Positions 6,831 to 34,392 of a stretch of 61,198 nt of DNA are shown here, in pieces. Position numbers and translations under genes: made by a program. The notes under the pieces were generated by a model. The model made no database searches, was not told where the DNA came from, and was given only the letters and a program-made list of their open reading frames with translations. The stretch is taken from positions 1-61,198 of the forward strand of contig JAFYYN010000055.1 of NCBI GenBank assembly GCA_017557525.1, read 5' to 3'. The DNA is from Lachnospiraceae bacterium (GTDB lineage Bacteria > Bacillota > Clostridia > Lachnospirales > Lachnospiraceae). The stretch's first letter is position 1, and each line of letters opens with the position of its first letter.

Positions 6831-6869
6831 CCTTTATATAATACTATATTTTTTGCAATTCTTCAACTA

Positions 6870-6904
6870 AAAATTTCCCCTGTCTGCCAATTGACAGACA
6901 GGGG
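6870..6904 (-). terminator. Intrinsic terminator closing the pilus operon
   Basis: Perfect 10-bp arms CCCCTGTCTG (6877-6886) and CAGACAGGGG (6895-6904) with an 8-base loop, followed on the minus strand by a short A/T-rich tract with five T. It lies about 30 bases after the stop codon of the large secreted protein and separates the pilus locus from the envelope operon. A T-rich tract also follows on the plus strand, so it may work in both directions. Confidence 0.8.
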
Positions 6905-6934
6905 ATAATTATTTTTTTTAAGCTTATTCTATCA

Positions 6935-11107: not shown

Positions 11108-11178
11108 AATCTCCTCCATGTTTAACAATTAACAACGAGTTACTATTGTTACTGTAATGCTCATATGCATCACATAAA

Positions 11179-11838
11179 TTACTTTATTCTAATATTTCTT
11201 GAAAGGACATTTATATTTGAGCTAAAGTCCTTATCTGCATAACTAAACTCTAAAGTTCCTGATATCAACGAACCATTAGGCTGAATCTGGGGATCATTTA
11301 TATTCATAGCTGTTACATTCTTTGCTATAAGCTGATACTTGTCACCTACGATACCGTAATAATAATTATCTCTTACAGCAGTAAGCATAGGTGGTACTGC
11401 CCATTTATAACCACCACTGATAGCAGAGGGATCACCGGGTATCATTAGCCCCGCAGGTACTTTTGCATATCTAAGTACCCCAACATCTTCACCATGTACT
11501 TTCTCAAATAGAATAAAATATGTACAATACTCATTTATGGATGCTCCTTCAGCATTATCTCTTGCGTAAATCCATAAAAGTTGAAGATCATATGTAACGC
11601 CGTCTATTGTTTTCTGTTCAGTGGCTTTGGTGCCATATGCTTGCGCCTCAAGAAACAACTCCGTTAAAAAGGTGTTAGCGGTTACTGCTTCTTCCTGAAG
11701 TCTCGCACTGGTGTCAACGGTTTTATATGCTGTCCTAGACGTATTCATAAACACACCAACACCCAGCATCAAAATACCTGTGATAAGTACGGCTACAACC
11801 ATTTCAACAAGCGAGAAACCATTATTATTCATTTTCAT
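11179..11838 (-). CDS. Minor pilin, PilW-like
   Basis: A 219-residue prepilin. The short positively charged leader ends in NNNG followed by FSLVE, the type III signal with Gly(-1) and Glu(+5), and a hydrophobic helix of about 20 residues continues (MVVAVLITGILML). The C-terminal domain is a predicted beta-rich head containing a few Tyr-rich loops. Processing by the prepilin peptidase encoded at 19.6-20.4 kb is expected. A good Shine-Dalgarno (GGGAGGTG) precedes the start. It lies 18 bases after the next minor pilin gene and before the large secreted protein, consistent with a priming or tip complex. The PilW-like label rests on size, order and N-terminus only. Confidence 0.75.
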   Translation of the reverse strand: MKMNNNGFSLVEMVVAVLITGILMLGVGVFMNTSRTAYKTVDTSARLQEEAVTANTFLTELFLEAQAYGTKATEQKTIDGVTYDLQLLWIYARDNAEGASINEYCTYFILFEKVHGEDVGVLRYAKVPAGLMIPGDPSAISGGYKWAVPPMLTAVRDNYYYGIVGDKYQLIAKNVTAMNINDPQIQPNGSLISGTLEFSYADKDFSSNINVLSRNIRIK

Positions 11839-11856
11839 ACATTCACCTCCCGCTTA

Positions 11857-12426
11857 TCACTCATCAAGATAACATCTACCTGTAACAGGAACTATTATTA
11901 GATTCTTTGTTTCTGAAGTACCCTCAATTTCTAAATTATCACAAGGACCAAATTTAGTTTCTCCTCCCCACTCTAATGCTGTAGAAGTTATAGCTCCGGT
12001 ACCTTTTTCATAATAAAATCTAATTTTATAATTTGTAGCAGATGAACCATCGTGAGGTTCGAATTCAGAACCTGTTGTATCAGTATGAATAGAGAACTTG
12101 AGTTTTAATATGTCACTGCAAATCTTATCATCGGAAATTACCGTTCCATCATCAACGATATCAACATAATAATATCCGTTCTTCTCAAAAAACTCAACAA
12201 AAACGGATGCAGATCCTAAAGAGGTGGCTTCTTTTTTTCCCATCGCGCGGGTTCTGGCCTGTTTCATAGCATTCATTACCGTTTGTGCTGCAGTACTTAC
12301 TCTGGCATTATGTACAGAAGAAAAACCCGCTACTGCTATTCCAGAGAGAATACCAAGTATAAGAACAGCTACTATCAGTTCAACCAAACTGAAACCATTA
12401 TTATCTCCCCTTATCTTTTTCCTCAT
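11857..12426 (-). CDS. Minor pilin, FimT/GspH-like
   Basis: A 189-residue prepilin with leader MRKKIRGDNNG and mature N-terminus FSLVELIVAVLILG, giving Gly(-1) and Glu(+5). The helix is followed by an NAMKQARTRAM segment typical of the alpha-1 C region in FimT/GspH-type pseudopilins, then a beta-rich head. It is co-directional and closely packed with the other minor pilin genes (45-base gap upstream). Such proteins sit at the tip and prime fibre assembly. A GAGGAGA ribosome binding site precedes the start. Confidence 0.75.
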   Translation of the reverse strand: MRKKIRGDNNGFSLVELIVAVLILGILSGIAVAGFSSVHNARVSTAAQTVMNAMKQARTRAMGKKEATSLGSASVFVEFFEKNGYYYVDIVDDGTVISDDKICSDILKLKFSIHTDTTGSEFEPHDGSSATNYKIRFYYEKGTGAITSTALEWGGETKFGPCDNLEIEGTSETKNLIIVPVTGRCYLDE

Positions 12427-12471
12427 ACACTATCTCCTCTTAATGTACATGTTGGCCAAGCCGAACATTTA

Positions 12472-14925: not shown

Positions 14926-14980
14926 TGTTGTCTCCTTTCCATATAAATCCCGTTATACTTTTTTACATTAATTAACTCTA

Positions 14981-16312
14981 TCATGATGTGATTACATCTA
15001 CCATTGTAGAGTTTTTTGTTGATCTTAACTCACTATCTGAATCATAGACCTGAATCTTCAGATCGTACATTTTCTTAATCTTATCTGTATTTGTAGCATC
15101 TCGTATAATATTAGTGGATACTGGAATAGCTGACGCACTCCCATCTATCTCCACAGGAACTATATCATTAAACTGATTATAAAATTTCACAGCTCCAGTA
15201 GTTGCTTTAAAATGATATTTCATTTTCCCGGAATGTTTTAGCGAGCCATCAGCATTAAAGTCCTTCTGCGAAATCTGCTTACATATAGTATAGAAAGACA
15301 TATCCTCAGGAATATCTTTTTCTATCTGAATGATTTCTTCGGGAGATCCTGCGTTTATATTATTAAGATTATATTTATAGGTAGTATTACCTTCCTCATC
15401 AGTTACCTCATCAATACTGTAATTCAATACTGAGTAGAATAATAATATTGCATCAGGTGCTACTGCACTTTTTCTGTATTCACAACTGGGTGTCTCAGGA
15501 ACCTTAAATACTCCTCCGTTATGGGTTGCCCCCTCAAACGGGATCGAATTTAAACAGTTATAAATAATCTGTTTCTCTATCTTGTACTGTCCGGCATGCT
15601 TTTTATCTTCAGCTGATGCTGTGTCCGGTAGAGTATCCGGCAACTTTGAAATTTTTACAAAAGTAGTTTTCTTTTTTATCCAACTTTTCGCAATCGCGAA
15701 TCTCTCACTATCGGTTTTACCCTCAAAGTAGTTTGTGATATTCTCAGGTATCGCTTCGGCAGCTTTAACAATTTCCTTAATGTTTTCTTCATCCTGGTTC
15801 TCGGCCAGATTGACCCTTAAAGCCTGGCCATTTGAAATTTCCGAAATAACAGAATACCCATCAAGTGAATTCTGAGCAGGTATAGGCGTAGTACCTCCCT
15901 CAGGAATCGTAGGCTCATAAGGGGTATTATCAAAGCTAAACTTTGCAGTATATACTTTAGTACCTTCCTTTATCCCGCTAATAATAAATGCATTCGTTAA
16001 AGATGTATCCTTTTGTAGTTTTGCTCCAGAACCAGCCTCAGGGAAATCAACAATTCCTCCGACTGCAGTAGGCGAATGATCTATATAATCATTAAGTCCC
16101 TGTATTCCGTAAGCTTTAACTACTTCCATGCAGTTTGTAGCCACTGTTTCAGCATACAATTCAGATTCAGATTTAATATTTGCTTTCAAAGCCACATTTA
16201 AACTCATAAGCAATGGTACAAATACAATTCCAACAATCAATACGCTAACTATAATTTCAATCAAAGTAGACCCACGATTGTCAGTTCTTAACCTCAATTC
16301 TCGGCTGACCAT
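14981..16312 (-). CDS. Large minor pilin, PilV-like
   Basis: A 443-residue prepilin. The leader ends in DNRG and the mature protein starts STLIEIIVSVLIVGIVFVP, retaining Glu(+5). After the N-terminal helix the sequence ESELYAETVATNCMEVVKAYG resembles PilV/GspI-type pseudopilins. The head is about 400 residues, twice the usual size, with lysine- and glutamate-rich stretches. A strong AAAGGAGAG site precedes the start. It follows a 161-base gap containing a stable hairpin, so its expression may be set apart from that of the inner-membrane alignment genes pilM/N/O. Confidence 0.7.
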   Translation of the reverse strand: MVSRELRLRTDNRGSTLIEIIVSVLIVGIVFVPLLMSLNVALKANIKSESELYAETVATNCMEVVKAYGIQGLNDYIDHSPTAVGGIVDFPEAGSGAKLQKDTSLTNAFIISGIKEGTKVYTAKFSFDNTPYEPTIPEGGTTPIPAQNSLDGYSVISEISNGQALRVNLAENQDEENIKEIVKAAEAIPENITNYFEGKTDSERFAIAKSWIKKKTTFVKISKLPDTLPDTASAEDKKHAGQYKIEKQIIYNCLNSIPFEGATHNGGVFKVPETPSCEYRKSAVAPDAILLFYSVLNYSIDEVTDEEGNTTYKYNLNNINAGSPEEIIQIEKDIPEDMSFYTICKQISQKDFNADGSLKHSGKMKYHFKATTGAVKFYNQFNDIVPVEIDGSASAIPVSTNIIRDATNTDKIKKMYDLKIQVYDSDSELRSTKNSTMVDVITS

Positions 16313-16387
16313 ACAATCTCTCCTTTCATAACTTCTTACCGCATCTCCTCAAAATCCATTTTTCATCTTCATATAAAGATTCTTGAA

Positions 16388-16442
16388 AATATTCATATTC
16401 CAACCGAATTCCATATATGGTATTCGGTCGGATATAAATATT
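16388..16442 (-). promoter_or_regulatory. Long hairpin between pilO and the minor pilin genes
   Basis: Arms of about 21 bases (16388-16409 and 16422-16442) include the core CCGACCGAAT/ATTCGGTTGG on the minus strand and enclose a loop that contains CCATATATGG. No long T-run follows directly, so it is more likely an mRNA processing or stabilising structure or a weak attenuator than a full terminator. Confidence 0.6.
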
Positions 16443-16473
16443 TACATGAATATACCCCCCATATCCAAAAAGC

Positions 16474-17235
16474 CTACTCTTCTGAACTATTGTCTTCAGT
16501 ATTTTCGTTACTGATATTTTCAGACTGATTAATCACTGGATTAAACGTATTTTCTTCCCCCATTTCATCCTGTTCCTCGACTAAACTTGGTTCATAATTT
16601 TTAAATACATTTCCTATACCCAACTCTATATCTTCAAAAACAGGATCAACATAAACATGATTTTCATCTAAAACAGCATAAAGATTTATAGTCATAACCG
16701 TTCTAAGTCTGCCATTCTGCTGATTATACGATACATTAAAACTTTCAATATTCATCCTTTCAGGATATCCGTTAATAAAGTCAACAATTTTTTTTAGCTG
16801 TGTATATCCCGATTCTATTGTGATGTTTGAAGGACTAGTAATTAATTGTCTTTTAGGAACTTCGTTTTCATCTTTTTCTTCAGAAACATAAATAACAGTA
16901 GCATCGCTAAAAGAAATTGAATCAATCGTACATCCTACTTTATGGCACAAATCTATAACCGTTTTAATTGTTTTTTCTGGAGTAATACCCGGGCCATATT
17001 TTTCAAAAATGCTCTCACACATATCTTCAGCTAAATCAATTTTCTCTTGATAAAGAGAGCGCGATGCCATCTTTGTATTTAATTCATTTAATCTTTCCTG
17101 GAGACTTCTATTTTCATTCTCTATAGTTTCTGCTTTTTCTGCATTGGGTTTATATAAAAACTGGTAACTTACAAAAACAAGAATAGCAGCAATAACAACA
17201 GCCCCAAGTAGAATTTTTTGTCCTTCTACTTTCAT
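16474..17235 (-). CDS. PilO-like inner-membrane alignment protein
   Basis: A 253-residue bitopic protein: a short cytoplasmic N-terminus, one membrane helix (about residues 8-27), a coiled coil (about 30-75; ENENRSLQERLNELNTK) and a ferredoxin-like outer domain, the architecture of PilO/GspM. In T4P machines PilO pairs with PilN and links the platform to the outer parts of the system. The start codon overlaps the stop of the PilM-PilN gene (ATGA), showing translational coupling. The last 50 residues are acidic and probably disordered. Identification rests on architecture and position more than on sequence identity. Confidence 0.7.
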   Translation of the reverse strand: MKVEGQKILLGAVVIAAILVFVSYQFLYKPNAEKAETIENENRSLQERLNELNTKMASRSLYQEKIDLAEDMCESIFEKYGPGITPEKTIKTVIDLCHKVGCTIDSISFSDATVIYVSEEKDENEVPKRQLITSPSNITIESGYTQLKKIVDFINGYPERMNIESFNVSYNQQNGRLRTVMTINLYAVLDENHVYVDPVFEDIELGIGNVFKNYEPSLVEEQDEMGEENTFNPVINQSENISNENTEDNSSEE

Positions 17236-21856: not shown

Positions 21857-23071
21857 TTATAACTTATTCAAATCACCATACATATTGATCATAGGTGAGT
21901 ACATTGCCATAACCATCCAACCTACAAGACCACCAAGTACCACGATAATAATGGGTTGCATCATCTCTGACATGGACTGAGTAGCAAGTTCTGCTTCTTC
22001 TTCATAATACTCTGCTACCTTATCGAGCATCGTCTCGATGTTACCGGTTTCCTCGCCGATTGCAATCATGTTCGGAACCAAAGTAGGATAAACTTTTGCT
22101 CTACGGATTGGTACTGAAAGATTTACACCTTGTTCCACTTCCTGCTTTGCTTTTATCAGTGCACGTTTAAATAGGATATTTTTCATAGCCTTAGCAGTTA
22201 TTTCAAGTGATTGAGAGATACCCATACCAGATGAAACTAAAGTACTCATTGTTCTTGCAAAGGAAGCGGATTGCGTTTTAATATTAACCTGTCCAATAAT
22301 CGGTATTTTAATTGCTATAGTGCCAAATACCTCTTTCCCTTTTTCCGTCTTGCCAAATAATCGAAGACTAACAACAGCCGCAACTACTATAATTATAAGT
22401 AACCACCATTTATTTATAAGGAAGTCTGCAAGTGCCATAACCGCCTTTGTCGAACCTGGCAGCTCAGAACCCATCCCGGCAAACATTTCAGCAAACTTAG
22501 GAACAACGGCAGTTGACATAACAATCAACACTACTAAGGCTACTGCAATGACTGCTATAGGATAAATCATAGCCTTTTTAATTATACCCGCCAACTTTGC
22601 ACTTTTTTCAAATTGGGTACCCATACGGCTTATAGCTTCTTCAAGTGAACCGGAAACTTCACCGGCTTCAACCATATTTACAAACATCTCAGGAAATACT
22701 TTCGGGTGTTTGCTCATAGAAACCGCTAATGTCTCGCCTTGTTGAACTGATTCAGAAGTTTTCCTAAGTGTCTTGACCAGTGTTTTATTCTGTGTCTGAT
22801 CAGCCAACATATTCAAAGCTTCAACAACCGTAACTCCCGCATTCAATATTGAAGTAAACTGTCTACAAAATACTGACAAGTCTCTTTTTGTAACTTTAGG
22901 ATCACCGCCTATATTAAAGTCCTTAGAAAAAATACTTTGACCTTTTACCGATATAGGAGTAAGACCGCTTGTTGTAAGTTGTAGCTTTACAGCTTCAACA
23001 TTTTTTGCTTCAATAGTTCCTTTTGTCTGATCACCATTTCTAGTGACCGCTACGTAAGTATACTGTGCCAC
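21857..23071 (-). CDS. Type IV pilus platform protein PilC (GspF family)
   Basis: A 404-residue inner-membrane platform protein that couples the PilB/PilT ATPases to pilin insertion and removal. It has two GspF domains (about residues 70-190 and 270-395), each with the conserved ArgGln-type start (FCRQFTSILNAGV and FARTMSTLVSSGM), and three membrane segments near residues 170-190, 215-235 and 375-395. Translation starts at a GTG with AAGGAG eight bases upstream. It has its own promoter and precedes pilA by 97 bases. Confidence 0.95.
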   Translation of the reverse strand: MAQYTYVAVTRNGDQTKGTIEAKNVEAVKLQLTTSGLTPISVKGQSIFSKDFNIGGDPKVTKRDLSVFCRQFTSILNAGVTVVEALNMLADQTQNKTLVKTLRKTSESVQQGETLAVSMSKHPKVFPEMFVNMVEAGEVSGSLEEAISRMGTQFEKSAKLAGIIKKAMIYPIAVIAVALVVLIVMSTAVVPKFAEMFAGMGSELPGSTKAVMALADFLINKWWLLIIIVVAAVVSLRLFGKTEKGKEVFGTIAIKIPIIGQVNIKTQSASFARTMSTLVSSGMGISQSLEITAKAMKNILFKRALIKAKQEVEQGVNLSVPIRRAKVYPTLVPNMIAIGEETGNIETMLDKVAEYYEEEAELATQSMSEMMQPIIIVVLGGLVGWMVMAMYSPMINMYGDLNKL

Positions 23072-23239: not shown

Positions 23240-24301
23240 TTAGAATGACAACCTCTGCCCCAACGTTCCTGCATCCTGCGCGAAACTTATTGCAGTCTCT
23301 CTGTCTATAAATCTTGCATTGTAAAGGTCAAGCAGGTCATCATCCAGAGTCTTCATGCCCATCTTACGTGATGTCTGCATTGTTCCGGCTATCTGGAAGG
23401 TCTTGTTCTCACGGATAAGGTTTCTGATAGCGGGTGTTGCTAGCATGACTTCGAATGCTGCTTTTCGTCCATTTCCGCCTATGATGGGACACAGTGCCTG
23501 GGAGATAACGCCTTCAAGCACCATGGCTAACTGGGACCTGATCTGTGTCTGCTGGTAAGGCGGGAATACGTCTATGATACGGTCTATGGTTGCTGCTGCT
23601 CCTATTGTATGCAGTGTACTAAATACCAAGTGACCGGTCTCTGCTGCGGTGATGGCTGTTGCTATTGTGTCCAGGTCACGCATCTCACCTACGAGGATTA
23701 CGTCAGGGTCTTCACGCAGTGCAGATGTAAGCGCCTGTGAGAAGCTCTTTGTATCAAGTCCTATTTCACGCTGGTTTACGATACATCTCTTATGGGGATG
23801 CAGGTACTCTATAGGGTCCTCCAGTGTGATTACGTGGTAAGGCGACCTGTCATTTATTACGTTTATTAAGCTAGCCAAAGTTGTAGATTTTCCTGATCCT
23901 GTAGGTCCGGTTACAAGTACCAGTCCTCTCTTTTTAAATGTCAGGTCTACTACGGCATTCGGTATACCTAACTGTGAAGGTGAAGGGATATCCATACCTA
24001 TGAGTCGGAGTACTGCTGCTACCGAGCCTCTCTGATGGAATACGTTTGCTCTGTAACGTCCCTCTCCCATGATGGCGTATGAGAAGTCGAGCTCGCCCTG
24101 CTCCTCAAATCTTTGTACCAGCTGCGGCGGTATTATGGAGTACCCAAGTTCCGCTGTATCCGCAGGGGTTAGTATTGAGCATCCTTCGATGTCTACCAGG
24201 TCACCGAATACTCTGACCTTGGGCGGTACGCCTACCGACAAATGTAAGTCGGATGCATGCATCTGGTTTGCTATTACGAGCATTTCGTTTATACTTAACA
24301 T
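23240..24301 (-). CDS. Pilus retraction ATPase PilT
   Basis: A 353-residue secretion ATPase of the PilT class, which powers pilus retraction, twitching and DNA uptake. Visible motifs: an N-terminal PAS-like domain (HASDLHLSVGVPPKVR), Walker A GPTGSGKST (~residue 130), an Asp box region (EDPIEYLH), Walker B with DVILVGEMRD, the His box GHLVFSTLHT, and a C-terminal region with TLDDDLLDLY. Length fits the family. It lies downstream of pilB; a 137-base spacer between them carries a repeat element. Its presence implies dynamic, retractable pili rather than static fibres or a pseudopilus. Confidence 0.95.
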   Translation of the reverse strand: MLSINEMLVIANQMHASDLHLSVGVPPKVRVFGDLVDIEGCSILTPADTAELGYSIIPPQLVQRFEEQGELDFSYAIMGEGRYRANVFHQRGSVAAVLRLIGMDIPSPSQLGIPNAVVDLTFKKRGLVLVTGPTGSGKSTTLASLINVINDRSPYHVITLEDPIEYLHPHKRCIVNQREIGLDTKSFSQALTSALREDPDVILVGEMRDLDTIATAITAAETGHLVFSTLHTIGAAATIDRIIDVFPPYQQTQIRSQLAMVLEGVISQALCPIIGGNGRKAAFEVMLATPAIRNLIRENKTFQIAGTMQTSRKMGMKTLDDDLLDLYNARFIDRETAISFAQDAGTLGQRLSF

Positions 24302-24330: not shown

Positions 24331-24440
24331 ACACCTCATCCGCGACTGCATCGCATGTCATAAGGTATCTTCCCGCTACGCGGGCCCCTCCTTATGACGT
24401 ATTACCCCTCAGGGGAAGCCTTTATCTGGGGAAGCCTTTA
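24331..24440. repeat. Dispersed palindromic repeat, long variant, at the pilB stop codon
   Basis: On the minus strand it begins TAAAGGCTTCCCC, supplying the pilB TAA, repeats AAAGGCTTCCCC once more, then has paired segments (CCCGCGTAGCGGG; GTCATAAGG/CCTTATGAC) and ends GATGAGGTGT. Two shorter relatives are at 26223-26275 and 34340-34392. It occupies most of the pilB-pilT spacer. Confidence 0.8.
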
Positions 24441-26177
24441 GCTGGTTGCCTCCACATCATCCACATCTTCGCCGGCGTATACGATACGTTTGAGCTCGTT
24501 TATGGAGGTTACTGCGTTCTTTACATGCTTACTGCAGGCCATCTGCAAGGTGTACATACCGTCTGCAAGTGCTGCGTTTTCTATCTGCTCCGTGGTACCC
24601 TTGCTTGCTATAATGTTCCTAATACGTGCTGATATAGGCATGAGCTCGTATACACCGATACGACCTCTGTAGCCATTGTAGCCGCACTGAGGACAGCCAA
24701 CAGGATCCCAGATCTTTACCTCATCCTCACCTTCCATGCCAAGGATTTTCTTTTCTCTCTCGTTTGCTAACCTCTCCTTACGGCAGGCCGGGCAGAGACG
24801 TCTAACAAGTCGCTGTGCGATAACGCCAACTACTGAGTCTGCTATAAGGTAGTACTCCAAGCCCATATCTGCAAGACGTGTGATTGATGCTGCAGATGAG
24901 TTGGTATGCAGTGTAGATACGACCAAGTGACCTGTGATAGATGCCGTTACGGCTATACTTGCGGTCTCCTGGTCACGGATCTCACCGATCATGATGATGT
25001 CCGGGTCCTGACGCAGAATAGAACGAAGGGCTGATGCGAAAGTAAGACCTGCTTTTACGTTAGTCTGTACCTGGTTGATGCCCTCGATGTTCGCCTCGAC
25101 AGGGTCCTCTACTGTGATGATGTTAACATCTTCTTTATTTAGCTCTGATAATGCCGTGTAAAGTGTGGTTGACTTACCGGAACCGGTAGGTCCTGTAACC
25201 AGGATGATTCCGTTCGGGTTGGAGAATATTCTGTCGAATGTTCCAAGCTCCTGCTCGTCGAAACCAAGGTTTCTCTTATCGCGGGAGAGTGCCTTCTTCT
25301 GAGTAAGACGCATAACGGTTTTTTCGCCGTATACGGTGGGTAGCAAGGATACACGGATATCGTATTCTACTTTATCTACGATGGATGTGATACGACCGTC
25401 CTGTGGTTTACGCTTTTCCGAGATATCCATACCGCCTATGATCTTGATACGGGTATTGATAGCGGATAGCATGTTTATCTTGTAGTCACCGGAATTTTTC
25501 AGCACACCGTCGATACGATAGCGGACTCTGATGTGTTTTTCAAATGGCTCGATATGAATATCGGATGCTCTCTGACGGGCTGCCTGCTCGATGATGCGGT
25601 TTACAAGGATAACTACGGGGCTGTTCTCGACTGCGGCGTTTGCCTCAGTCATTTCCTCGTCCTTGTACTGCTCTTCTTCCTCTGCACGCTCTTTTGCGAA
25701 CAGGTCTGCCACTGCCTGGTTCTCCAGGTTACCGAAGTACTTATCGATAGCTGCTAAAATGTCAGTGGTGGTCGCGATACAAGGTGATATCTGCATACCT
25801 GTAAGGAGCGTCATGTCATCTATGACCTTGATGTCCATAGGGTCTGCCATGGCAACCTTTAAGTATCTTGAGTCGTACTCATCGAAGTCGAACGGGATCA
25901 CCAGGTTCCTCTTTAAGACTGTATGGTCTTTTATGAGGTTAAGGATATTTTCCTTAATGTTAACTCGGTTCGGGTCTACAAGGTCAAGGCCAAGCTGTCT
26001 GGATAGTGCCGTTGCTATCTGCCTCTCCGATGCGAATCCCAGTTCTACTAATGTTTCACCTAATTTGTGCTTTGTTTCCTGTTGTCTCGTCAGTGCCTGG
26101 TTTAACTGGTCAAGGGTTATAACGCCCTCGTCCATCATTACGTCACCGAGGCGGACTTTTTTGTTCACAAATGCCAT
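24438..26177 (-). CDS. Pilus assembly ATPase PilB with N-terminal MshEN c-di-GMP-binding domain
   Basis: A 579-residue extension ATPase; the ATG at 26177 is preceded by GGAAG. Residues ~7-30 and ~34-57 each match the 24-residue MshEN motif ((R/K)LG at 1-3, Gly at 10, Leu/Ile at 17, Leu at 21, Gln at 24), the signature for c-di-GMP binding. The ATPase domain follows with Walker A GPTGSGKST (~330), Asp box (VEDPVEANIEG), Walker B region (PDIIMIGEIRD), His box (GHLVVSTLHT) and a zinc-binding CPAC/CPQC pair near 470-505. It provides energy for pilin polymerisation and is probably activated by c-di-GMP, for which two candidate phosphodiesterases are encoded in this window. Confidence 0.95.
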   Translation of the reverse strand: MAFVNKKVRLGDVMMDEGVITLDQLNQALTRQQETKHKLGETLVELGFASERQIATALSRQLGLDLVDPNRVNIKENILNLIKDHTVLKRNLVIPFDFDEYDSRYLKVAMADPMDIKVIDDMTLLTGMQISPCIATTTDILAAIDKYFGNLENQAVADLFAKERAEEEEQYKDEEMTEANAAVENSPVVILVNRIIEQAARQRASDIHIEPFEKHIRVRYRIDGVLKNSGDYKINMLSAINTRIKIIGGMDISEKRKPQDGRITSIVDKVEYDIRVSLLPTVYGEKTVMRLTQKKALSRDKRNLGFDEQELGTFDRIFSNPNGIILVTGPTGSGKSTTLYTALSELNKEDVNIITVEDPVEANIEGINQVQTNVKAGLTFASALRSILRQDPDIIMIGEIRDQETASIAVTASITGHLVVSTLHTNSSAASITRLADMGLEYYLIADSVVGVIAQRLVRRLCPACRKERLANEREKKILGMEGEDEVKIWDPVGCPQCGYNGYRGRIGVYELMPISARIRNIIASKGTTEQIENAALADGMYTLQMACSKHVKNAVTSINELKRIVYAGEDVDDVEATS

Positions 26178-26222
26178 TTGTTTTGCTTCCTTATTATATA
26201 TAGTAGTCTTACTGAGGGTATA

Positions 26223-26275
26223 ACACCTCATCAGTCAGCTACGCTGACAGCTTCCCCTCCGAGGGGAAGCCTTTA
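26223..26275. repeat. Dispersed palindromic repeat at a gene stop codon
   Basis: A 53-base element with hairpins GTCAGC/GCTGAC and GCTTCCCCTC/GAGGGGAAGC, conserved ends TAAAGGCTTCCCC and GATGAGGTGT on the minus strand. The TAA at its edge is the stop codon of the gene at 26273-27499. The copy at 34340-34392 is nearly identical. Confidence 0.85.
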
Positions 26276-27499
26276 TTGACTGTATCTCGAAATATAATCA
26301 CGTACCGAGTACTGCCAGTCGCCTACATGCATTCTTCTCCAGTTGTTGCCGGCAAGGTCTGTCTTGCCACCGAGATATGCATTCATATCTGACTCGTTAT
26401 CGATATCGATGATGTTAGGCATTACGTTCTCTTTATAGTAGTTGTACTCGTAGAAGTATGCGGTATTATCATCTACTACCTCTATTACTACGAACTTGCC
26501 AAAGTCGAGTATCAGGCTGCCGCACTGATGTACAGATACGGATATCTTCGATGCATATGATAGCCAGAAGTCTGCGACTCCGCCCTTGCCCAGCATCTTT
26601 GTGATGAGGAACTGGTTGAGCCATACTGAGTACCTCGCCTGGAACTGGGGTGCCAGCTCATCCATGATTGCTGTGTACTTGTCACTGCCCTTTGCTCCGG
26701 TGATGGGCTCAAAGAGTTCAACAAGCTTTGCGTACTTTCTGAGCTGTACTGTATCAAGGTTCTTTACCATATTGAGCAGGAGCTTCTTTCTCATTTCCTC
26801 ATCGAAGTCCTTAGCCATGTCGTAAAGATCTTCTTCCTTGAACTTTCTATACTCTTCTGCGTTACATATTACTATGAAGTATACCATACACTCGTTGTAG
26901 AGTGATGTATCCTTTACTACGCCTACTGCCACGAGTGCCTCGGCATAATTGCCGGTCATGGCGGTCTTGTCCGTTGCAAGCTTGTTGAAATATGCTGCAA
27001 CCGTGCCTGCCGAGAACTGCTTCATGAGTTCCTTTGAGTCCTGTCCGGTCTGCCTGCGGAGTGAATCAAGGAACGCATCATTCTTCTCCAGGCTCTTGTA
27101 CAGAGGCTTTAATGCAGGGGACTTATAATTCTCAAGGCAGCCCTTGTAAATCTCGAGTACCATGTCGTCCGGCAGTTTCTCGGAGCTCTCGGTGAGGATG
27201 CTGATGTATTTGTTTACATGATCCTCTACCTTGGCTGCATCAGCCTTTCCCTCCTGCGCTGCCCTCATCTGGTTGAACATATACGGAATGAGCAGGTTTT
27301 TCTCCTCGCTGCTCAGGCAATATGCTATGCCCGACATTTCCTTCATGGGCTTTTCGCCTATTTTCTCAAATATCTTGGCGCATTCTCCAAGTCCCGCAGC
27401 TGCCTCCTCGGACTTACGCTGTATGCGGTCCTCTCTTTGCTGCCGGATGTTCTCCGCAGCCTCGCCTAAGATTTTAGGTTGATATATGTTGTAATCCAT
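26273..27499 (-). CDS. Conserved protein with EH_Signature-like C-terminus (possible ZorC relative)
   Basis: A 408-residue soluble protein with no signal peptide or membrane segment. The N-terminal ~250 residues are helical and rich in charged residues. The C-terminal ~130 residues have FWLSYASKISVSV, then FVVIEVVDDNTAYFYE and finally MHVGDWQYSVRDYI. This order of an aromatic FW helix, an IE strand with an NxAYFY segment and a terminal HxxxW(E/Q) matches what I remember of the EH_Signature domain, named for conserved Glu and His and found in ZorC of Zorya anti-phage systems. It precedes pilB by about 95 bases in the same direction, so it may also be a pilus accessory. AAGGATG precedes the start. 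Function is unassigned; the domain call needs a profile search. Confidence 0.4.
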   Translation of the reverse strand: MDYNIYQPKILGEAAENIRQQREDRIQRKSEEAAAGLGECAKIFEKIGEKPMKEMSGIAYCLSSEEKNLLIPYMFNQMRAAQEGKADAAKVEDHVNKYISILTESSEKLPDDMVLEIYKGCLENYKSPALKPLYKSLEKNDAFLDSLRRQTGQDSKELMKQFSAGTVAAYFNKLATDKTAMTGNYAEALVAVGVVKDTSLYNECMVYFIVICNAEEYRKFKEEDLYDMAKDFDEEMRKKLLLNMVKNLDTVQLRKYAKLVELFEPITGAKGSDKYTAIMDELAPQFQARYSVWLNQFLITKMLGKGGVADFWLSYASKISVSVHQCGSLILDFGKFVVIEVVDDNTAYFYEYNYYKENVMPNIIDIDNESDMNAYLGGKTDLAGNNWRRMHVGDWQYSVRDYISRYSQ

Positions 27500-27516
27500 A
27501 GATTATCATCCTTTTT

Positions 27517-27927
27517 TTATACAATCATAACATACTTTTCATTATACAACTTTATTTTTGAGTCATGCGTTATCAATACCATTTTTTCAAACTTCGATTG
27601 TGCTATCAACATTCTATCAAAAGGGTCTCCATGTTTAATATCATCGTTCGCAAGCTTTAAGCCGTTTAAAGTAAAGATATGTTCTTTATTTATCAATAAT
27701 TCATAAAAATTTGCTTTCAAACACAATTTAGCAAGATTTTCTGCAGAAATACCGATTGATGAAGGATTCTTAGAATATTTTATTGCAACTTCCCATAAAG
27801 AAACAATGCTAAAGTATATTTTATTTTCTTTATTTTCAATTAAATTAATGACTTCATCGGTCAAAAAACTGTTATCACCTTTTAAAAACCAGATAAGAAT
27901 ATGTGTATCAAGCAAATATTTCATCAT
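27517..27927 (-). CDS. PIN-domain toxin (VapC-like)
   Basis: A 136-residue PIN-domain ribonuclease, the toxin of a type II toxin-antitoxin pair. Acidic active-site residues are visible: Asp in LLDTHILIW, Glu in SLWEVAIK, Asp in HGDPFDRMLIAQ and Asp in LITHDSKI. The start ATG overlaps the antitoxin stop by four bases (ATGA), so the two are translated together. Base composition is much more AT-rich than the genes on each side, pointing to recent acquisition. Confidence 0.85.
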   Translation of the reverse strand: MMKYLLDTHILIWFLKGDNSFLTDEVINLIENKENKIYFSIVSLWEVAIKYSKNPSSIGISAENLAKLCLKANFYELLINKEHIFTLNGLKLANDDIKHGDPFDRMLIAQSKFEKMVLITHDSKIKLYNEKYVMIV

Positions 27928-28151
27928 GACTCTCCGTAAAACATAGCGGCTATTTCATCATTCATATCGTCGAAATGCTCATAAAAATCATCTGGTAATT
28001 TAATAATATCTTTACCAATTCCAAATTTTCTTATTTCCTTAGATTTTTTTTTAGGTTTAACGGTTAAGCTTTTTATAAAATCCACAATCGCTTTCATATT
28101 TTCATTAGGTTGTTCCTGAATTAATTCTATAGCTTCTTGTTTCAGTGTCAT
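27924..28151 (-). CDS. Antitoxin of PIN-domain TA module
   Basis: A 75-residue protein upstream of and overlapping the PIN toxin gene. The first half (KQEAIELIQEQPNENMKAIVDFIKSL) is helical as in the DUF2281/Phd-like small antitoxins. The second half is rich in Lys and then acidic (FYEHFDDMNDEIAAMFYG), the likely toxin-neutralising tail. An AAAGGAGAGTGA ribosome binding site precedes it. It probably represses its own operon. The family label is tentative, the role is secure from context. Confidence 0.75.
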   Translation of the reverse strand: MTLKQEAIELIQEQPNENMKAIVDFIKSLTVKPKKKSKEIRKFGIGKDIIKLPDDFYEHFDDMNDEIAAMFYGES

Positions 28152-28225
28152 TTAGGATCACTCTCCTTTCGATTAAAATCCCCTAATGTCACTTATTCAT
28201 CTAAACCCAACGAAATAATGTGATA

Positions 28226-29215
28226 TTAGGTTAATCCCCTCAATGCCTTAGGCAGCCTTGCTGCGGCCTCGTTGATCTCCTCTGTGGTCTTGCCAAGGGT
28301 TGTAGCTACGTCTGCCAACTGCTTGTCGAGTAACTCGAAGATATCGTTGATGGTCTTTGCCATCATCTCTTCGAATGAAGGCAGATTTACCTTCATGTCT
28401 GCGGATACCTCGTTGAGTGCTACGGTGTAGCTTGTCATAGACTTTGTGTACTTGGTCATCTGTGCAAGGAGTTCCTCTGAGTTCTTGTTTACCTCTTCGT
28501 CTGCCTTTACATAGTTCTGAGCCCAGCTTGACTGATGTCCTTCGAGTATCTTCTTCTCTTCTGCTAAGTGCTCGCCCAAACGGTTGAGTACTGTACCAAG
28601 ATCTGACAGGTTTGTTGCCTGTGTCTCTGAGATGTTCTTTAAGCTCTTTGAAATATCGTCGTATACGTTCTTCAAGCTGTTGATCGTGTCTGTTGTAAGA
28701 CTGTTCATACCGTCTGATACACCGATGGTAACAGTCTTCATAGCGTCTGATGCATCTTTGATTGACTTCTGCATTTCAACTGATGCAAGTGAGATGGTTG
28801 AACGAAGATCCTCTGTAGCGGTCCTCATGTCCTCCAAGATTGCCTTCTGTGCGTTTGAGATTTCCTTCATCTCATCAAGTGTGCTGGAGAAACCGTCTAC
28901 TAATGTCTTAACTGCCTCAGCGCTTTCCTTCTGCATCCTTGCGCCCTCAACTGCTGAACGCGAAAGGTCCTGGAATGTACCCTGTGTGGACTCCTCTAAC
29001 CTGTCCATGAATGCCTGGGTAAGTCTGCCGATAGCGTCTGCCTGAAGGTCCTTGGAAACCTCGAGTGACTTCTTTACGTTTGCTGCGAATACGGTAAATA
29101 CCGGTGTTAATGCATCCTGAATTGCACGAGATACTGTCTCGGCGATGCCTGATACTACCTGCTCAGCTACCTGCTGATTTGTGTTTCCGCTCTTTGCGTC
29201 ATTAAAAATAGCCAT
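28226..29215 (-). CDS. Soluble coiled-coil protein resembling the ZorA tail
   Basis: A 329-residue, almost entirely helical protein with long heptad stretches and no membrane segment or signal. The pattern (a conserved LTPVFTVFAANVKKS start, QADAIGRLTQAFMDRL, then long Ser/Thr/Glu/Lys-rich coiled coils ending in FELLDKQLADVATTLG) resembles the cytoplasmic tail that follows the MotA-like channel in ZorA of Zorya systems, and superficially also the signalling part of methyl-accepting proteins. No MCP hairpin-tip consensus is present. It has a strong promoter and GGAGG site and is followed by the TA pair and the EH_Signature-like gene. Function unknown. Confidence 0.5.
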   Translation of the reverse strand: MAIFNDAKSGNTNQQVAEQVVSGIAETVSRAIQDALTPVFTVFAANVKKSLEVSKDLQADAIGRLTQAFMDRLEESTQGTFQDLSRSAVEGARMQKESAEAVKTLVDGFSSTLDEMKEISNAQKAILEDMRTATEDLRSTISLASVEMQKSIKDASDAMKTVTIGVSDGMNSLTTDTINSLKNVYDDISKSLKNISETQATNLSDLGTVLNRLGEHLAEEKKILEGHQSSWAQNYVKADEEVNKNSEELLAQMTKYTKSMTSYTVALNEVSADMKVNLPSFEEMMAKTINDIFELLDKQLADVATTLGKTTEEINEAAARLPKALRGLT

Positions 29216-29336: not shown

Positions 29337-32300
29337 TTATACCTCAAACACCACTCCATTTTCGATGCGCCTCGGCTTTAGTCTCTCGCGGCGCTCATCG
29401 AATACTGTCACATCCGTGTCGTGCTTACAGGTAATACTGCCATAATGAAGTATCGTCTTGCCCTTCTGGACACCGAAGCTCCTCGGGATGCCGGCCAGGA
29501 TCTCGACATTAAGGCTTCCGCCATACATATTGACGCCGACCTTACCTTCGCCGCCTCCGATACCGTTGATCTGGGTGCCCTCGGCGTAGATCTCGGTATT
29601 CGCATCCTCGAGCTTGACCTCGCCCGTTGACATCAGAGACCCGATACCTATACCGCAGTATGAATGCAGCGTGACATTAAAGTCGTTGCTGAGCAGGTTC
29701 GTCATCGTTGTCCCATTAAGAGACCCGATACCAACCGTCTTCTCGCCGTCACCGGTGATGTCCAGCTTGCCCCTGCAAAGTATCTCGGAATTACCGCTGA
29801 TGGAACCCAGAGCCACCGAATCATTACCGTCACTCTTGAGCTTACATTTTGCAGTTCTTCCTATATATATGTCAGTGTCACCGATATCGCTTCCGATGGC
29901 CACCGCATGTATCGCCTTGGCACTGATGTCGAAATTGCCGTTGATGAGACGGATCCTCGAGCCCTCGCACCTGCCGCCGCCGATGCCCACAGCCTTGTCT
30001 CCGTTTGCGACGATCTTAACAGAGCCCGTCATATCAAAGGAAATGTCGCCGTGCGGCTCATTGCAGTTTGAACCGATGCCAACGCTTAAGTTCCTGCTGG
30101 TTATGATATGCAGGTTTCCGTCGCCGCTCACTGTGAGTCTCGAGCCTGCCGGCACGTAGATGCCGTCCTTGTTGAGCGTGCATTCGCCCTGAATGTACAG
30201 CGCCGTCTCGGTATTCCTACCCAGCTGCACCGTGGTCTCGAGCGTACCCCTCAGGTTTACATTCTCAAAGGTAAGCTCTGTCTTCTTGTCGTCCGCCGTC
30301 TTAACTATCATGTCAATGACGTTATCCGGCTCGCCTACCAGCTTGACCTTTCCTCCGAGAACGTTTACTATCGTGTATTTCTTTAGCGCAATGTCCAGGA
30401 GATTTACGGTCTCGCCCGCTTTTGCATTGTAAACCAGATTATCGCTGTCAAAGCTTGCAGCCTTGATGCTCTCCGAAAGTATCTCATTCCTTACATTCGT
30501 CGGGATCTGCTGCATTATCTCCGCATCGGGATGCGCCGTGTAAAAGCCCTGGATGTAGTCGACGCCGTACTCGATGACTTTCTTTAATTCCTCGTAGGTC
30601 TCGACACCTTCTGCCAGCACCTTCATATTGTTCATCGCCGCGAACTCGATGGTGTTCTTTACGAACATCTGCTTGTTCGAGTCGTCCTGGATGTTGCTGA
30701 TTAGGTAATGGTCGATCTTTATGATCTGCGGCGCGTACCTCATCAGGTTAACGATGTTCGAATGGCCCGTGCCGTAATCGTCTACCGCAACGCCCGGCGT
30801 CTGACCGCCCGGTGCAGGTTTTCTTAGCTTCGCGAGCTCATCATCCGTTACCGTATCGCTTTCTGTCACCTCAAATACGATGGAATCGAAGTACTGCCCG
30901 TATTTCTCGATTACCTGCTGCCTGTCTTCGTCGTTCAAGTAGTAGCCCGGCAGCGTGTTTATGAATATCTTCCTGTCACCGAATTTATCAAGATTGTCCA
31001 CATAGAACTGTAGGACGTTGAAAATGGTGGCACGCTCTATGTCATATAGCCTGTTTGCGTTCTTCGCGATCTCAAGCACGTCGAGCGGTGTCATCGATAT
31101 ACCTCCGCCGGTACGCATGAGCGCCTCATATGCGCAGATGTTTCCGGTTGCCGCGTCCACTATCGGCTGGAAGTGGTATCGGAACAGGTTCCTGTCTACT
31201 AAAAGCTCGAATGTGGTGAAATACTCGCGGTCAAAGGTCTTGTCACGGATAACCGGAGCGGCCTTGCCCTGACGCAGGCGCCTCAGGTACATGTCCGACA
31301 TCGCCATACGCACAAGGTTTTCAAGTGTTGAGTCCCAGCCCTCTTCAACCGTTGCCGTACCAAAGTTGACCTCGAGGTAGTACTCCTTGGTACTGCCCCT
31401 GTTGTACTCCTCCATATCTTTAGAGAAGTCCTTGAAAATTTCCTCGCCGTAGTTGCCGTCTTCCCGTTCAAAGTCGATAACGACATATTCGCCCTCGGCG
31501 AACTGGCCTAAGAAGCTTGACTTTTCACAGGAATTTCTTAATTTCTCTACCACGAGCCTTACCGCCTCTTCTATCTCGTACAGGCCGTAATTTTCGTAGA
31601 TGTATGTGTATCTCGGCATCGCGAATACGCTGACGCTGATCTTTCTCTTGTGGTTCTCCTCGTTTTCCGCAAAGCCCTCAAACCACCTGGTTGAGCCCTT
31701 GAGGTTAGGCAACCCGGTCATCGAGGATACATATACCGAGTTTTCGATGCTGTAGAGCATCCTCTGCTGCCTGTTCTGGTTAGCAAGGAATCTGAATACC
31801 ATATTGAGACCGAAGTTAAGGAGCTTTGTCTTGCTCCTGATCTCACTCAGGACTCTGGTCTTAACTGCGTAGTAGCCGCACACGAAATCACCGATAAATA
31901 CAGGGCTAAGTACCAGCATGCACCCGTCGGTTTCTGTATTTAGATATGCTTTGCCGATATCCTTTACCGAAATCTCATCCTTCGTGGAGAGGTGCGGGTT
32001 CTTTGAATTTGGTGCTACGTCCTCCGCTGAGATTATGCGGGTAAGGGTGAGATTTAGGTATTCGTTATTAGGGTTAGTGTTGTTTTCGCTATCAATCTCT
32101 TTGAGGTGCTCCTTCTCGAAAGTCTCAATATCAAAATTCGACTCAAGGAGCTCCGTATACATATACAGGACCGTCCCGCTCGGGATACGTTTAGATATCT
32201 CATCACATATATCCGGTAACTCCGACAGCTCAAGCATCCTGTCAAGCCATGCTATGAACGAATCCTCGCGGCGCTCTATCTCGTCAAGCTCCTTGTAGAT

Positions 32301-34058
32301 ATACGCTACATGGTTGTTTGAGCGGTATCTTTCCTCGCTGTGCCCGCCAACGCAACGCTTGTCATCCGCTACCTCCATGGCACGCTTGGCTGCTTTGTCA
32401 AGGTCCTGAGTTGCATGCTCGTTATTAGCAGCATCTATGGCTTTCGCAAAGGAGATTGTTTCGTTTTCGTATCTGGATTCATCTACGGATCTGGATTTCT
32501 CCCCGCTTCCCAGCCACGGTGATATGTGAATGCTGTCGGTTAGGCGGGTGGCATTTCTTATTACTCCCGAATTATCCTCCGGAATATTATCTTTATCATT
32601 ACCTGGGTGACGGAATATATCAGATGGATATATTTTCGCCATATGCTCAGCATTTTCTGAATTCTCGCAGTCCGTCACACTGTTTTCATCAACTACTCTT
32701 CCTGCGCCATATGTTATATCATATGACCCGACCTTCATGTCTGCCAGTTTGGGATTTGATGCTGCAAACTCGCTTAATGCTTTCTTGTCATATAACGGCT
32801 CTTCGTCCTTAACTCTACCACTGTTCTCTGTTACACCTTGCTCAGATGGAGGATTATTTTCAGATATCTGTACCGCTGCAGTATCATCAGCAGCCCCTGC
32901 ATCGATCTGGTTATCATCATAAATACCGTCCTTCTTATAAAGAACTACTGTACCCTCTCTTGCTGCACCCGGCTCAAATACTGTATCTTCCAACTCACTA
33001 TTTGCACTATTCGCGTTTCCGGTTACATTGTCGCCAGCGCTTGTTCTTATATCTGCAGTATCTGTGTTTGAAGGCCCACCGTTCGCATTTCCTGCTGCAG
33101 CCTGCTTCTCTTCCTCTGTAGGCACATAAATCCCTGCTGCCTTAGCCGCCTCAAGGTCATATGCACGTCTGCCAGCCGACATATATGAACGCATGTCACA
33201 GCCACAGGATCTCCTGATGCGTGCCTTAAATATATCCCTGTATACGCCGGGCTTCTTATGGCCCATAGCATCTTTTGCTGCCTGGATGACGATTTTCGCG
33301 AACTCCTCTACATCATCTGAACAAGATGTAATACTCGGATGATAGTAATAAGCGGCCGGTATGCCACCGAATCCTGTAACTATTATATCATCCGGTGCCT
33401 TAAGGTCGTATTCGTGCAGTTTGTCGCAAACCGTAATAGCGGTCTTGTCATCGATACAGATAATAGCCTGCGGTATGCTGCTCCCGGACATGAGCCTGTC
33501 GATGCCTGCTGTTACAACCTCGTCCTTGTAGTCACCATAAAACATCCTTGTATCATCGAACTCGATGCCGTTTTTTGCCAGCACTTTCTTTAGAATATCA
33601 AACCTGCCGGCACTTCTCTCGTCATCGTATTTAAAGCCGCTGACGAAGTAGAAATCCTTGATGCCATGCTCGTTAATAATGTGCTCGAGCATCTCGGTAA
33701 AAGCTACCTCGTAGTCACGAACTATCGAATAGCAGCCCTGCTTTTCAGGTCCGACGCAGATAACCGGCTTTCCTGCTGCCTTAGCGCTTTCTATCAGCGT
33801 ATCCGACACCTCCGAGTTGTTGATACTCTCGGGAAATACGGCTATTACATCTATCTCGTCATAATTTATTATCTTATATATGGACTTTGCGCCCTGAAGG
33901 CTGCGGTCGTTCTTACGGAAGTCGCGGAAGCTGTTGTAAGCCATCGTCTTCCAGCCTTCTATCGCTGCTACCCTGTTTATGGCGTTCAAATATTCAGTTC
34001 TTACTCTGTCCTGCATTTTAGCAAGGCATATACCTAAAACCCGCTTTTTTTCGCTCAT
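29337..34058 (-). CDS. Giant LacI-type sensor / degenerate GGDEF / EAL / beta-solenoid protein
   Basis: A protein of about 1,573 residues; the ATG at 34058 follows GGGGGAG. Residues ~1-310 are a LacI/GalR-type ligand-binding domain without the HTH (VFPESINNSEVSD, DIIVTGFGG). A disordered acidic linker runs to ~600, then a helical region. A degenerate GGDEF domain (~780-900) keeps GLPN but has AEGEY at the active loop. The EAL domain (~955-1200) has YEALMR, FEVTESD, VDDYGTGHSN, IKID, AEGVET and QGF, so the c-di-GMP phosphodiesterase residues look intact. The last ~370 residues are a beta-solenoid with about seven V(G/A)(I/L)G(S/G) repeats, a style usually seen in secreted proteins. No signal or membrane segment is visible, so it is apparently cytosolic. 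Predicted role: a ligand-controlled phosphodiesterase. Confidence 0.8.
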   Translation of the reverse strand: MSEKKRVLGICLAKMQDRVRTEYLNAINRVAAIEGWKTMAYNSFRDFRKNDRSLQGAKSIYKIINYDEIDVIAVFPESINNSEVSDTLIESAKAAGKPVICVGPEKQGCYSIVRDYEVAFTEMLEHIINEHGIKDFYFVSGFKYDDERSAGRFDILKKVLAKNGIEFDDTRMFYGDYKDEVVTAGIDRLMSGSSIPQAIICIDDKTAITVCDKLHEYDLKAPDDIIVTGFGGIPAAYYYHPSITSCSDDVEEFAKIVIQAAKDAMGHKKPGVYRDIFKARIRRSCGCDMRSYMSAGRRAYDLEAAKAAGIYVPTEEEKQAAAGNANGGPSNTDTADIRTSAGDNVTGNANSANSELEDTVFEPGAAREGTVVLYKKDGIYDDNQIDAGAADDTAAVQISENNPPSEQGVTENSGRVKDEEPLYDKKALSEFAASNPKLADMKVGSYDITYGAGRVVDENSVTDCENSENAEHMAKIYPSDIFRHPGNDKDNIPEDNSGVIRNATRLTDSIHISPWLGSGEKSRSVDESRYENETISFAKAIDAANNEHATQDLDKAAKRAMEVADDKRCVGGHSEERYRSNNHVAYIYKELDEIERREDSFIAWLDRMLELSELPDICDEISKRIPSGTVLYMYTELLESNFDIETFEKEHLKEIDSENNTNPNNEYLNLTLTRIISAEDVAPNSKNPHLSTKDEISVKDIGKAYLNTETDGCMLVLSPVFIGDFVCGYYAVKTRVLSEIRSKTKLLNFGLNMVFRFLANQNRQQRMLYSIENSVYVSSMTGLPNLKGSTRWFEGFAENEENHKRKISVSVFAMPRYTYIYENYGLYEIEEAVRLVVEKLRNSCEKSSFLGQFAEGEYVVIDFEREDGNYGEEIFKDFSKDMEEYNRGSTKEYYLEVNFGTATVEEGWDSTLENLVRMAMSDMYLRRLRQGKAAPVIRDKTFDREYFTTFELLVDRNLFRYHFQPIVDAATGNICAYEALMRTGGGISMTPLDVLEIAKNANRLYDIERATIFNVLQFYVDNLDKFGDRKIFINTLPGYYLNDEDRQQVIEKYGQYFDSIVFEVTESDTVTDDELAKLRKPAPGGQTPGVAVDDYGTGHSNIVNLMRYAPQIIKIDHYLISNIQDDSNKQMFVKNTIEFAAMNNMKVLAEGVETYEELKKVIEYGVDYIQGFYTAHPDAEIMQQIPTNVRNEILSESIKAASFDSDNLVYNAKAGETVNLLDIALKKYTIVNVLGGKVKLVGEPDNVIDMIVKTADDKKTELTFENVNLRGTLETTVQLGRNTETALYIQGECTLNKDGIYVPAGSRLTVSGDGNLHIITSRNLSVGIGSNCNEPHGDISFDMTGSVKIVANGDKAVGIGGGRCEGSRIRLINGNFDISAKAIHAVAIGSDIGDTDIYIGRTAKCKLKSDGNDSVALGSISGNSEILCRGKLDITGDGEKTVGIGSLNGTTMTNLLSNDFNVTLHSYCGIGIGSLMSTGEVKLEDANTEIYAEGTQINGIGGGEGKVGVNMYGGSLNVEILAGIPRSFGVQKGKTILHYGSITCKHDTDVTVFDERRERLKPRRIENGVVFEV

Positions 34059-34130
34059 AAACTCCCCCATGTTTCTTCAACAAATCCCTGCTTTTCAAGT
34101 TAAGTTTAGACTCCACCCCAACTTTACCAT

Positions 34131-34339: not shown

Positions 34340-34392
34340 ACACCTCATCAGTCAGCTACGCTGACAGCTTCCCCTCAAGGGGAAGCCTTTTA
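34340..34392. repeat. Dispersed palindromic repeat at the lysA stop codon
   Basis: Nearly identical to the element at 26223-26275: hairpins GTCAGC/GCTGAC and GCTTCCCCT/AGGGGAAGC, ending GATGAGGTGT on the minus strand. It starts at the lysA stop codon and lies before the operon's terminator. Confidence 0.85.

Follow-up and report, generated by a model that had tools for sequence, protein, structure and literature searches.

The window analysed here, a stretch of 61,198 nucleotides, is contig 24 of the draft genome of a Lachnospiraceae bacterium (G000; 3.9 Mb in 196 contigs). Two codirectional genes in it encode proteins that a sequence-only reading had likened to parts of the Zorya anti-phage defence system: a protein of 408 amino acids (aa) to ZorC with its EH_Signature domain, and a neighbour of 329 aa to the cytoplasmic tail of ZorA. 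Both open reading frames (ORFs) were found to be real, and we call their products EH and CC (for coiled coil). The two relationships are supported as remote homologies, and the two genes as one unit inherited with a type IV pilus operon. The pair and the main features of EH are as follows.

28226..29215, minus strand: CC, 329-aa coiled-coil protein, apparently soluble, related to the cytoplasmic tail of ZorA by remote homology and with no MotA-like motor (ORF; PADLOC; family profile)
26273..27499, minus strand: EH, 408-aa ZorC-like protein with a C-terminal EH_Signature-like domain (ORF; sub-threshold PF15611 match; family profile; hhalign)
26450..26572, minus strand: EH core, residues 310-350, with FW..Y, the E340 strand and AYFY (coordinates computed by hand from the reading frame)
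26312..26329, minus strand: H391-x-G-x-W395-Q396 motif of EH (coordinates computed by hand from the reading frame)

The FW, IE and HxxxW(E/Q) elements that had drawn attention to EH are present as F311 W312, I339 E340 and H391-W395-Q396 (HxGxWQ). EH_Signature (PF15611) matched residues 329-401 with E 0.0076 and 16 bits, and the aligned positions, 342-422 of 423, form the right end of the profile, though the match is sub-threshold. Taken directly, the database searches spoke against the assignment: the curated Pfam cut-off of 27.5 bits was not reached, 3 of 8 family members matched EH_Signature at E <= 1, and PADLOC gave no match for the EH protein of the window. A family alignment was therefore built, in which F311, W312, Y315, I339, E340, F349, Y350, H391, G393 and W395 are invariant in all eight members. 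E340, H391 and W395 are also common to a ZorC protein encoded at locus L012 of another genome (described below), and the same E, H and W occur in the same order, as E400, H443 and W458 of alignment A4, in four named ZorC proteins from plasmids of E. coli, Polymorphobacter, Nitrosospira and Polaromonas.

Three EH alignments, A1 (4 rows), A5 (8 rows) and A3, which includes the L012 protein, were used for profile comparison. With hhalign, A5 aligned to the four named ZorC proteins, independently of the L012 locus, with E 2.4e-4 and a score of 40.9; the 200 aligned columns keep W-LNQ, FW..Y, the E strand and the H...W end in register. A scripted rerun gave a score of 40.1 for 70 columns, whereas 150 versions with permuted columns did not exceed 22.1 and the reversed profile reached 18.0. 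The corresponding A1 comparison gave E 0.0019 with a probability of 14%, and the value of 2.7e-7 obtained with A3 was discounted as circular because A3 contains L012. When A5 was used to rank 361 single targets, 355 of which were decoy ORFs, the ZorC of L012 came first (E 2.7e-10) and that of Nitrosospira second (4.1e-5), followed by a protein of another pilus locus, L060, in fourth place and the Polymorphobacter ZorC in sixth. Several points weigh against the relationship: the hhalign probability for A5 and the four ZorC proteins was 44%, two of the four named proteins did not rank high (Polaromonas 70th, E. coli 273rd), and a plain hidden Markov model (HMM) of the four named ZorC proteins failed to reach the EH family or the window protein. 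In both the HMM test and the ranking, loci L006-L010 are biased decoys, having been selected by profile. No match to the single EH protein was found by PDB sequence search, a PDB search with A3 returned unrelated weak matches only, and NCBIfam gave weak matches far under its cut-offs. Thus the sequence-only reading of EH holds as remote homology: Pfam by itself yields a sub-threshold match, while the profile comparison with ZorC exceeds its controls. We regard EH as a remote but real relative of ZorC, in a short form supported by its length (408 aa, with 410 aa for the L012 protein, vs 560-606 aa for the four named ZorC proteins). A simple Kyte-Doolittle scan found no hydrophobic segment of transmembrane strength in it.

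Close homologues are rare, being detected in 2 of 250 genomes of the family by single-sequence search, and the two named relatives are metagenome-assembled genomes of Lachnospiraceae, one of them from goat omasum. The A1 profile, run against 392 genomes of the order, gave matches in seven, namely the own genome, G524 (E 1.3e-8, 34.6 bits), and five at or below 24.5 bits. These last (L006-L010, 17-24.5 bits) were taken as chance; by eye, the genes matched at L006, L009 and L010 resemble those of a response regulator, of a sigma factor and of a Jag-like protein, respectively. L011, a coiled coil by eye, was likewise dropped as chance. A family-wide search with alignment A8 matched 5 of 397 genomes, three of them (G000, G245 and G050) already represented as rows in A8 itself and the other two being chance matches: L122/L124 (17.7 bits), by eye a helix-turn-helix antitoxin-like gene, and L123 (15.4 bits). 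Class-wide, the profile search matched 1 of 391 genomes, the own genome only, and 14 viral stretches contained no relative. EH_Signature was over its cut-off in none of 200 family genomes, a scan that says little on other copies because it misses the window protein at E <= 0.001.

Since coiled coils mislead, the comparison of CC with the ZorA tail was run with controls. In PADLOC, ZorA models were the top matches of CC from the window (4e-7) and of its homologues at L002 (1.4e-8), L082 (2e-10) and L083 (1.3e-7). We then have to consider that CC might be an unrelated PilB accessory rod, with EH alone related to Zorya and the tail signal arising from convergent coiled-coil composition. Coils do draw non-homologous matches, as seen with Apolipoprotein in Pfam (E 4.5e-7) and with apolipoprotein A-I (E 0.002) among the coil matches of a PDB search using the CC family profile, and JetC and LmuB coils were also matched in PADLOC; a PDB search with CC alone found no match. 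Five control proteins chosen by eye as coiled-coil or similar, however, reached at best 1.9e-4 (LmuB) and 0.002 (ZorA) in PADLOC, and two of them had no match.

A stricter comparison used a profile of nine CC family members with no ZorA included (A6), applied to five ZorA proteins, the L060 protein, 618 decoy ORFs and 600 heptad-block-shuffled tails. The L060 protein scored 58.8, the ZorA of L012 36.5, that of Nitrosospira 18.8 and that of E. coli 13.8, compared with 6.9 for the best decoy and 9.5 for the best heptad shuffle. For each of the six proteins, none of 100 of its own shuffles, which keep the coil character, reached the observed score, which argues further against convergent composition. 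In the Nitrosospira ZorA, the listed A6 stretch (10.2 bits) covers residues 250-604 of 607 and starts behind the motor. The CC family has 32 invariant columns, 16 of them within the last 37 residues, which end in the tip LPKALRGL of the window protein, and a profile of this tail tip (last 52 columns) matched L060 at its C-terminus (E 0.0012 in 1194 targets). Two results count against homology with ZorA: the Polaromonas and Polymorphobacter ZorA proteins scored 6.9 and 4.3, so that two of five are not separated from the decoys, and with the tail-tip profile alone none of the named ZorA proteins rose above noise. With three of five ZorA proteins above all decoys and shuffles, we consider an unrelated rod unlikely, and the homology of CC with the cytoplasmic tail rod of ZorA is supported as remote homology, as had been suggested. 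The absence of a MotA-type channel from CC was borne out as well, since MotA_ExbB (PF01618) was not among the 25 of 35 Pfam matches listed and the Kyte-Doolittle scan detected no segment of transmembrane strength.

The one strong foreign match of the A1 profile, the 410-aa protein of L012 in G524, lies in a genome of the same family directly behind ZorA (MotA_ExbB, 2.6e-9) and ZorB (PADLOC ZorB1, 8.2e-75). It matches EH_Signature (5.2e-5, 23.2 bits, under the Pfam cut-off) and ZorC1 (2.9e-4). The operon (6071-17001) has the order ZorA, ZorB, short ZorC, Sel1/UvrD helicase, DrmA and DrmB, and by its gene content reads as a Zorya/DISARM-like hybrid. The words ZorA and ZorC do not occur in the available text of a paper on YprA/DrmA-type helicases, and a plasmid search with the L012 ZorA found none. 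L012 thus provides the closest ZorC by profile, in the same length class as EH, together with the closest true ZorA tail, whereas unlike the pair of the window it has a motor, ZorB, a helicase and DrmA/DrmB, and by eye no pilus genes in 17 kb. The view that neither protein is related to Zorya and that the motifs are coincidental can appeal to the weak direct database matches and to the Pfam match under its curated cut-off, and is nevertheless very improbable, as two different proteins both indicate Zorya, the EH profile leads to a Zorya operon that also encodes the true ZorA scoring best with CC, and the permutation and shuffle controls stay below the observed scores.

Zorya components beside the pair were looked for by a Pfam scan of 26 window proteins, comprising 25 of the 59 ORFs of at least 120 aa and a 75-aa antitoxin. 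No ZorAB motor gene was present among them, in agreement with the sequence-only reading. Neither ZorB (MotB plug plus OmpA) nor a Zorya effector (ZorD helicase, ZorE HNH, ZorF/G) was found among these proteins, the rest of the genome not having been searched for either, and the sole nuclease domain was the PIN domain of an inserted VapC. In the seven other complete loci described below, the gaps between CC and EH and between EH and PilB leave no room for ZorB. The pair is not classed as a Zorya system, since the search beside it turned up neither a motor nor ZorB nor an effector.

The genes next to the pair, all on the minus strand, are the following.

29337..34070, minus strand: 1577-aa Peripla_BP_3-GGDEF-EAL protein of the type that turns over cyclic di-GMP (c-di-GMP), upstream of CC (Pfam)
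27924..28151, minus strand: DUF2281 antitoxin, partner of the PIN toxin (PF10047, E 6.6e-9)
27517..27927, minus strand: VapC-type PIN toxin between CC and EH (PIN, E 7.2e-16)
24438..26231, minus strand: PilB assembly ATPase with an N-terminal MshEN domain of the c-di-GMP-binding type (T2SSE, E 8.5e-132; MshEN, E 3.5e-17)
23240..24301, minus strand: presumed PilT retraction ATPase (ORF; BLAST orthologues; named after the sequence-only reading and general knowledge of the family)
21857..23071, minus strand: presumed PilC platform protein (ORF; BLAST orthologues; named from general knowledge of the family)

EH is thus followed downstream by PilB, PilT, PilC, pilins, a prepilin peptidase and a PilM-like protein (PilM_2, E 2.3e-14); PilT, PilC, the prepilin peptidase and the two pilins adjoining PilC are what we take these genes to be from the sequence-only reading and general knowledge of the families. 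The toxin-antitoxin pair sits between the codirectional CC and EH genes in the window alone, and is considered an insertion confined to it because the gap between CC and EH is too small in the seven other complete loci. In the 1577-aa protein the EAL domain ends at residue 1181, leaving a long C-terminal part with no confident Pfam match.

Nine loci were compared: the window, L003 (= L078), L004 (= L079), L080, L081, L082, L083, L084 and L002 (= L013), with duplicates on the same contig counted once and L084, where the EH gene is cut, counted for gene order only. CC adjoins EH in all nine, apart from the toxin-antitoxin insertion of the window, and the order CC-EH-PilB-PilT-PilC was observed in 8 of 8 complete loci (PilT and PilC orthologues were identified by BLAST in the six other uncut loci of the genus, and in L013 by eye). 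The gap between CC and EH ranges from -1 to 125 bases in the seven other complete loci and is 726 bases in the window. The GGDEF-EAL gene precedes CC in seven of the eight loci whose upstream side lies on the contig, L083 starting at the contig edge. L083 also has an extra 169-aa ORF (4596-5105) between PilB and PilT.

Among 24 genomes of the genus, eight have the EH gene, one of which (G970) is cut at the contig end with CC and the start of EH. The seven genomes with a PilB of at least 67% identity are exactly those with a complete EH, while 16 of the 24 have neither and G970 is cut; as the genomes are drafts, absences are uncertain. A second PilB type (about 41%) is found in genus genomes with the pair. 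It is the first PilB that the pair tracks, because the second occurs in G979, which has no pair, and is absent from G986, which has one. For the wider family, a search of 60 genomes found 36 PilB places, of which 34 stretches around other PilB genes were read, several of them cut by contig ends; the window's own PilB and a partial one (G039:C144) were outside these. FastTree placed the eight PilB proteins that accompany the pair in a single clade (support 0.877) of a midpoint-rooted tree of 36 PilB proteins, with L060 far away. Three observations tell against a tie between the pair and the pilus: the GGDEF-EAL gene is absent in L013, the pair is missing from the second pilus locus of the genome that includes the window, and it was not found beside 33 of the 34 other PilB genes in the family. 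It is therefore not a core part of the pilus. Nevertheless, the conserved order and joint occurrence support the conclusion that CC and EH form a unit inherited together with the PilB/PilT/PilC operon. The survey of gene neighbourhoods suggested for the pair found its two genes adjacent throughout the nine loci, the insertion in the window aside.

Substitution rates point in the same direction for both genes. Ratios of non-synonymous to synonymous rates (dN/dS) between the window and four close relatives were 0.04-0.09 for EH, 0.03-0.05 for CC and 0.02-0.06 for three Pil genes. Against L082 they were 0.21 for CC, 0.14 for PilB and 0.10 for PilT, with EH and PilC saturated, and dS is near saturation elsewhere too. 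In four of five comparisons with the window, EH showed the lowest conservation among the five operon proteins compared; in one, PilC was slightly lower. The idea of an arms race acting on EH was dropped because its dN/dS is only 0.04-0.09.

One of the 34 stretches, L060, contained relatives of both proteins by profile. It encodes a 794-aa protein that has hydrophobic segments at the N-terminus and a very long coil matching A6 up to the C-terminus (E 1.3e-17), followed by a 423-aa EH-like protein, both ahead of PilD (on the minus strand), PilB and PilT. By these profile matches, L060 would be a second case, though a diverged one, of a tail/EH-like pair linked to a pilus ATPase, and is the weakest of our positive results. 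It resembles the pair of the window in that both genes are profile-related to it and adjoin a pilus ATPase operon, and differs in the N-terminal hydrophobic segments and in a PilB that is remote in the tree. Against this linkage, the 423-aa partner has none of the signature residues FW, E, H and W and no Pfam or PADLOC match, and the N-terminus of the 794-aa protein is not recognised by score as a ZorA motor (19.8 vs a maximum of 21.4 in 60 shuffles). Single-sequence search found no relatives of L060 in 249 other genomes of the family.

Taking these results together, we lean, with some reserve, to the reading that the pair is a Zorya-related two-protein module which either lost the ZorAB motor or was always without one, and which is now in the service of the type IV pilus. 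The context favours a role in the pilus; a role in defence is possible but not favoured. CC would bundle into a soluble coiled-coil rod, and its conserved C-terminal tip, LPKALRGL, would engage EH much as the ZorA tail is thought to signal to its partners. Input would come from the pilus machine, either from the PilB/PilT ATPases or from the PilC/PilM base, in place of an ion-driven motor, and the module would regulate or report the state of pilus extension and retraction, perhaps in the same circuit as c-di-GMP, given MshEN on PilB and the neighbouring GGDEF-EAL protein. The pair lies next to a pilus motor, while no Zorya motor, ZorB or effector was found near it; from this we infer that tail and EH make up a detachable signalling unit which has been put to new use at the base of the pilus. 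That the pair touches PilB directly, that c-di-GMP takes part, and which way the signal runs are guesses. Of the suggestion that the pair is a pilus accessory touching the motor of the adjacent system, it is the accessory part that gene order and co-occurrence support.

The pair can be compared with two known systems. Like Zorya type I, it sets a tail-like coiled coil beside an EH_Signature-like protein in which the signature E, H and W are conserved, with homology backed by profiles. It differs in having no MotA-like domain, no ZorB or ZorD found beside it and no transmembrane segments, in the shorter EH, and in lying in, and being inherited with, a pilus operon. PilZ, FimX and MshEN with c-di-GMP are, like the module proposed here, cytoplasmic factors tied to the PilB motor, and the PilB of the window itself has MshEN; PilZ and FimX are not known to be coiled-coil or EH proteins. 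A review of PilB regulators names PilZ, FimX and c-di-GMP binding by MshEN, including that of PilB2 of Clostridium perfringens, and in its available main text the word coiled-coil has no occurrence (PMC11656802). ZorAB is treated as a remote homologue in the available text of a paper on the evolution of MotAB (PMC12505986). A literature search, with most subscription papers outside its scope, found, among the papers listed, no title or abstract on such a motorless pair of tail and EH.

The reading of the pair as a stand-alone, soluble anti-phage defence, which had been put forward as one option, is not supported by the context, because no Zorya effector was found among the scanned neighbours and the pair is inherited with one PilB clade. 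In a variant of this reading, defence would be coupled to the pilus. Here the tail and EH would sense phage or foreign DNA arriving via the pilus, as receptor or DNA-uptake route, and act on it, and the trigger would be the pilus motor instead of ZorAB. In its favour, each of the two proteins has homologues among the components of a proven anti-phage system, and the strongest foreign match obtained with the first EH profile is encoded in a Zorya-like operon that also has a helicase, DrmA and DrmB. In Zorya, as reported in the available text of one paper, the tail of ZorAB is bundled from the C-termini of five ZorA subunits, this tail, ion flow and peptidoglycan binding are important for defence, and ZorAB recruits ZorC and ZorD (PMC11890865). 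Yet the scanned genes of the window include no Zorya-type helicase or nuclease, the inserted VapC aside, the pair tracks one PilB whose tree shows a single clade, and both genes are under purifying selection, so that a pilus-coupled defence seems improbable to us.

For the favoured module in the service of the pilus, the value of the pair lies in what it isolates. To our knowledge, the role of the ZorA tail and ZorC between motor and nuclease is among the least understood steps of Zorya. By analogy, the pair may work like this tail-to-ZorC step, and a natural pair with no motor and no nuclease, encoded within a pilus operon, reduces that step to two soluble-looking proteins that should be purifiable. 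If the two bind via the tail tip or respond to PilB/PilT, a defence signalling cassette can couple to a pilus motor, and Gram-positive type IV pili would gain a new regulator; parts of a defence machine and the pilus may share a mechanism. A more speculative extension, which we hold only tentatively, is that ZorA tail and ZorC form a general, motor-agnostic cassette that would be driven by an ion-powered rotary motor in Zorya and by a pilus ATPase motor here, and through which mechanical events at the envelope (pilus contact, phage adsorption or DNA uptake) would evoke a response in the cytoplasm. If so, a mechanosensing module would be common to Zorya and type IV pili and exchangeable between them.

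Two further observations were made in the window. The 14-mer GACAGCTTCCCCTC occurs twice, in the stretches 26246-26270 and 34363-34376, both outside the described genes, and its first copy overlaps a 9-pair hairpin directly downstream of the 408-aa gene. Elsewhere, a 1397-aa DUF5057 protein (6935-11128) adjoins two genes with pilin-type N-methylation motifs (11179-11838 and 11857-12426), and is possibly a large surface protein borne on the pilus.

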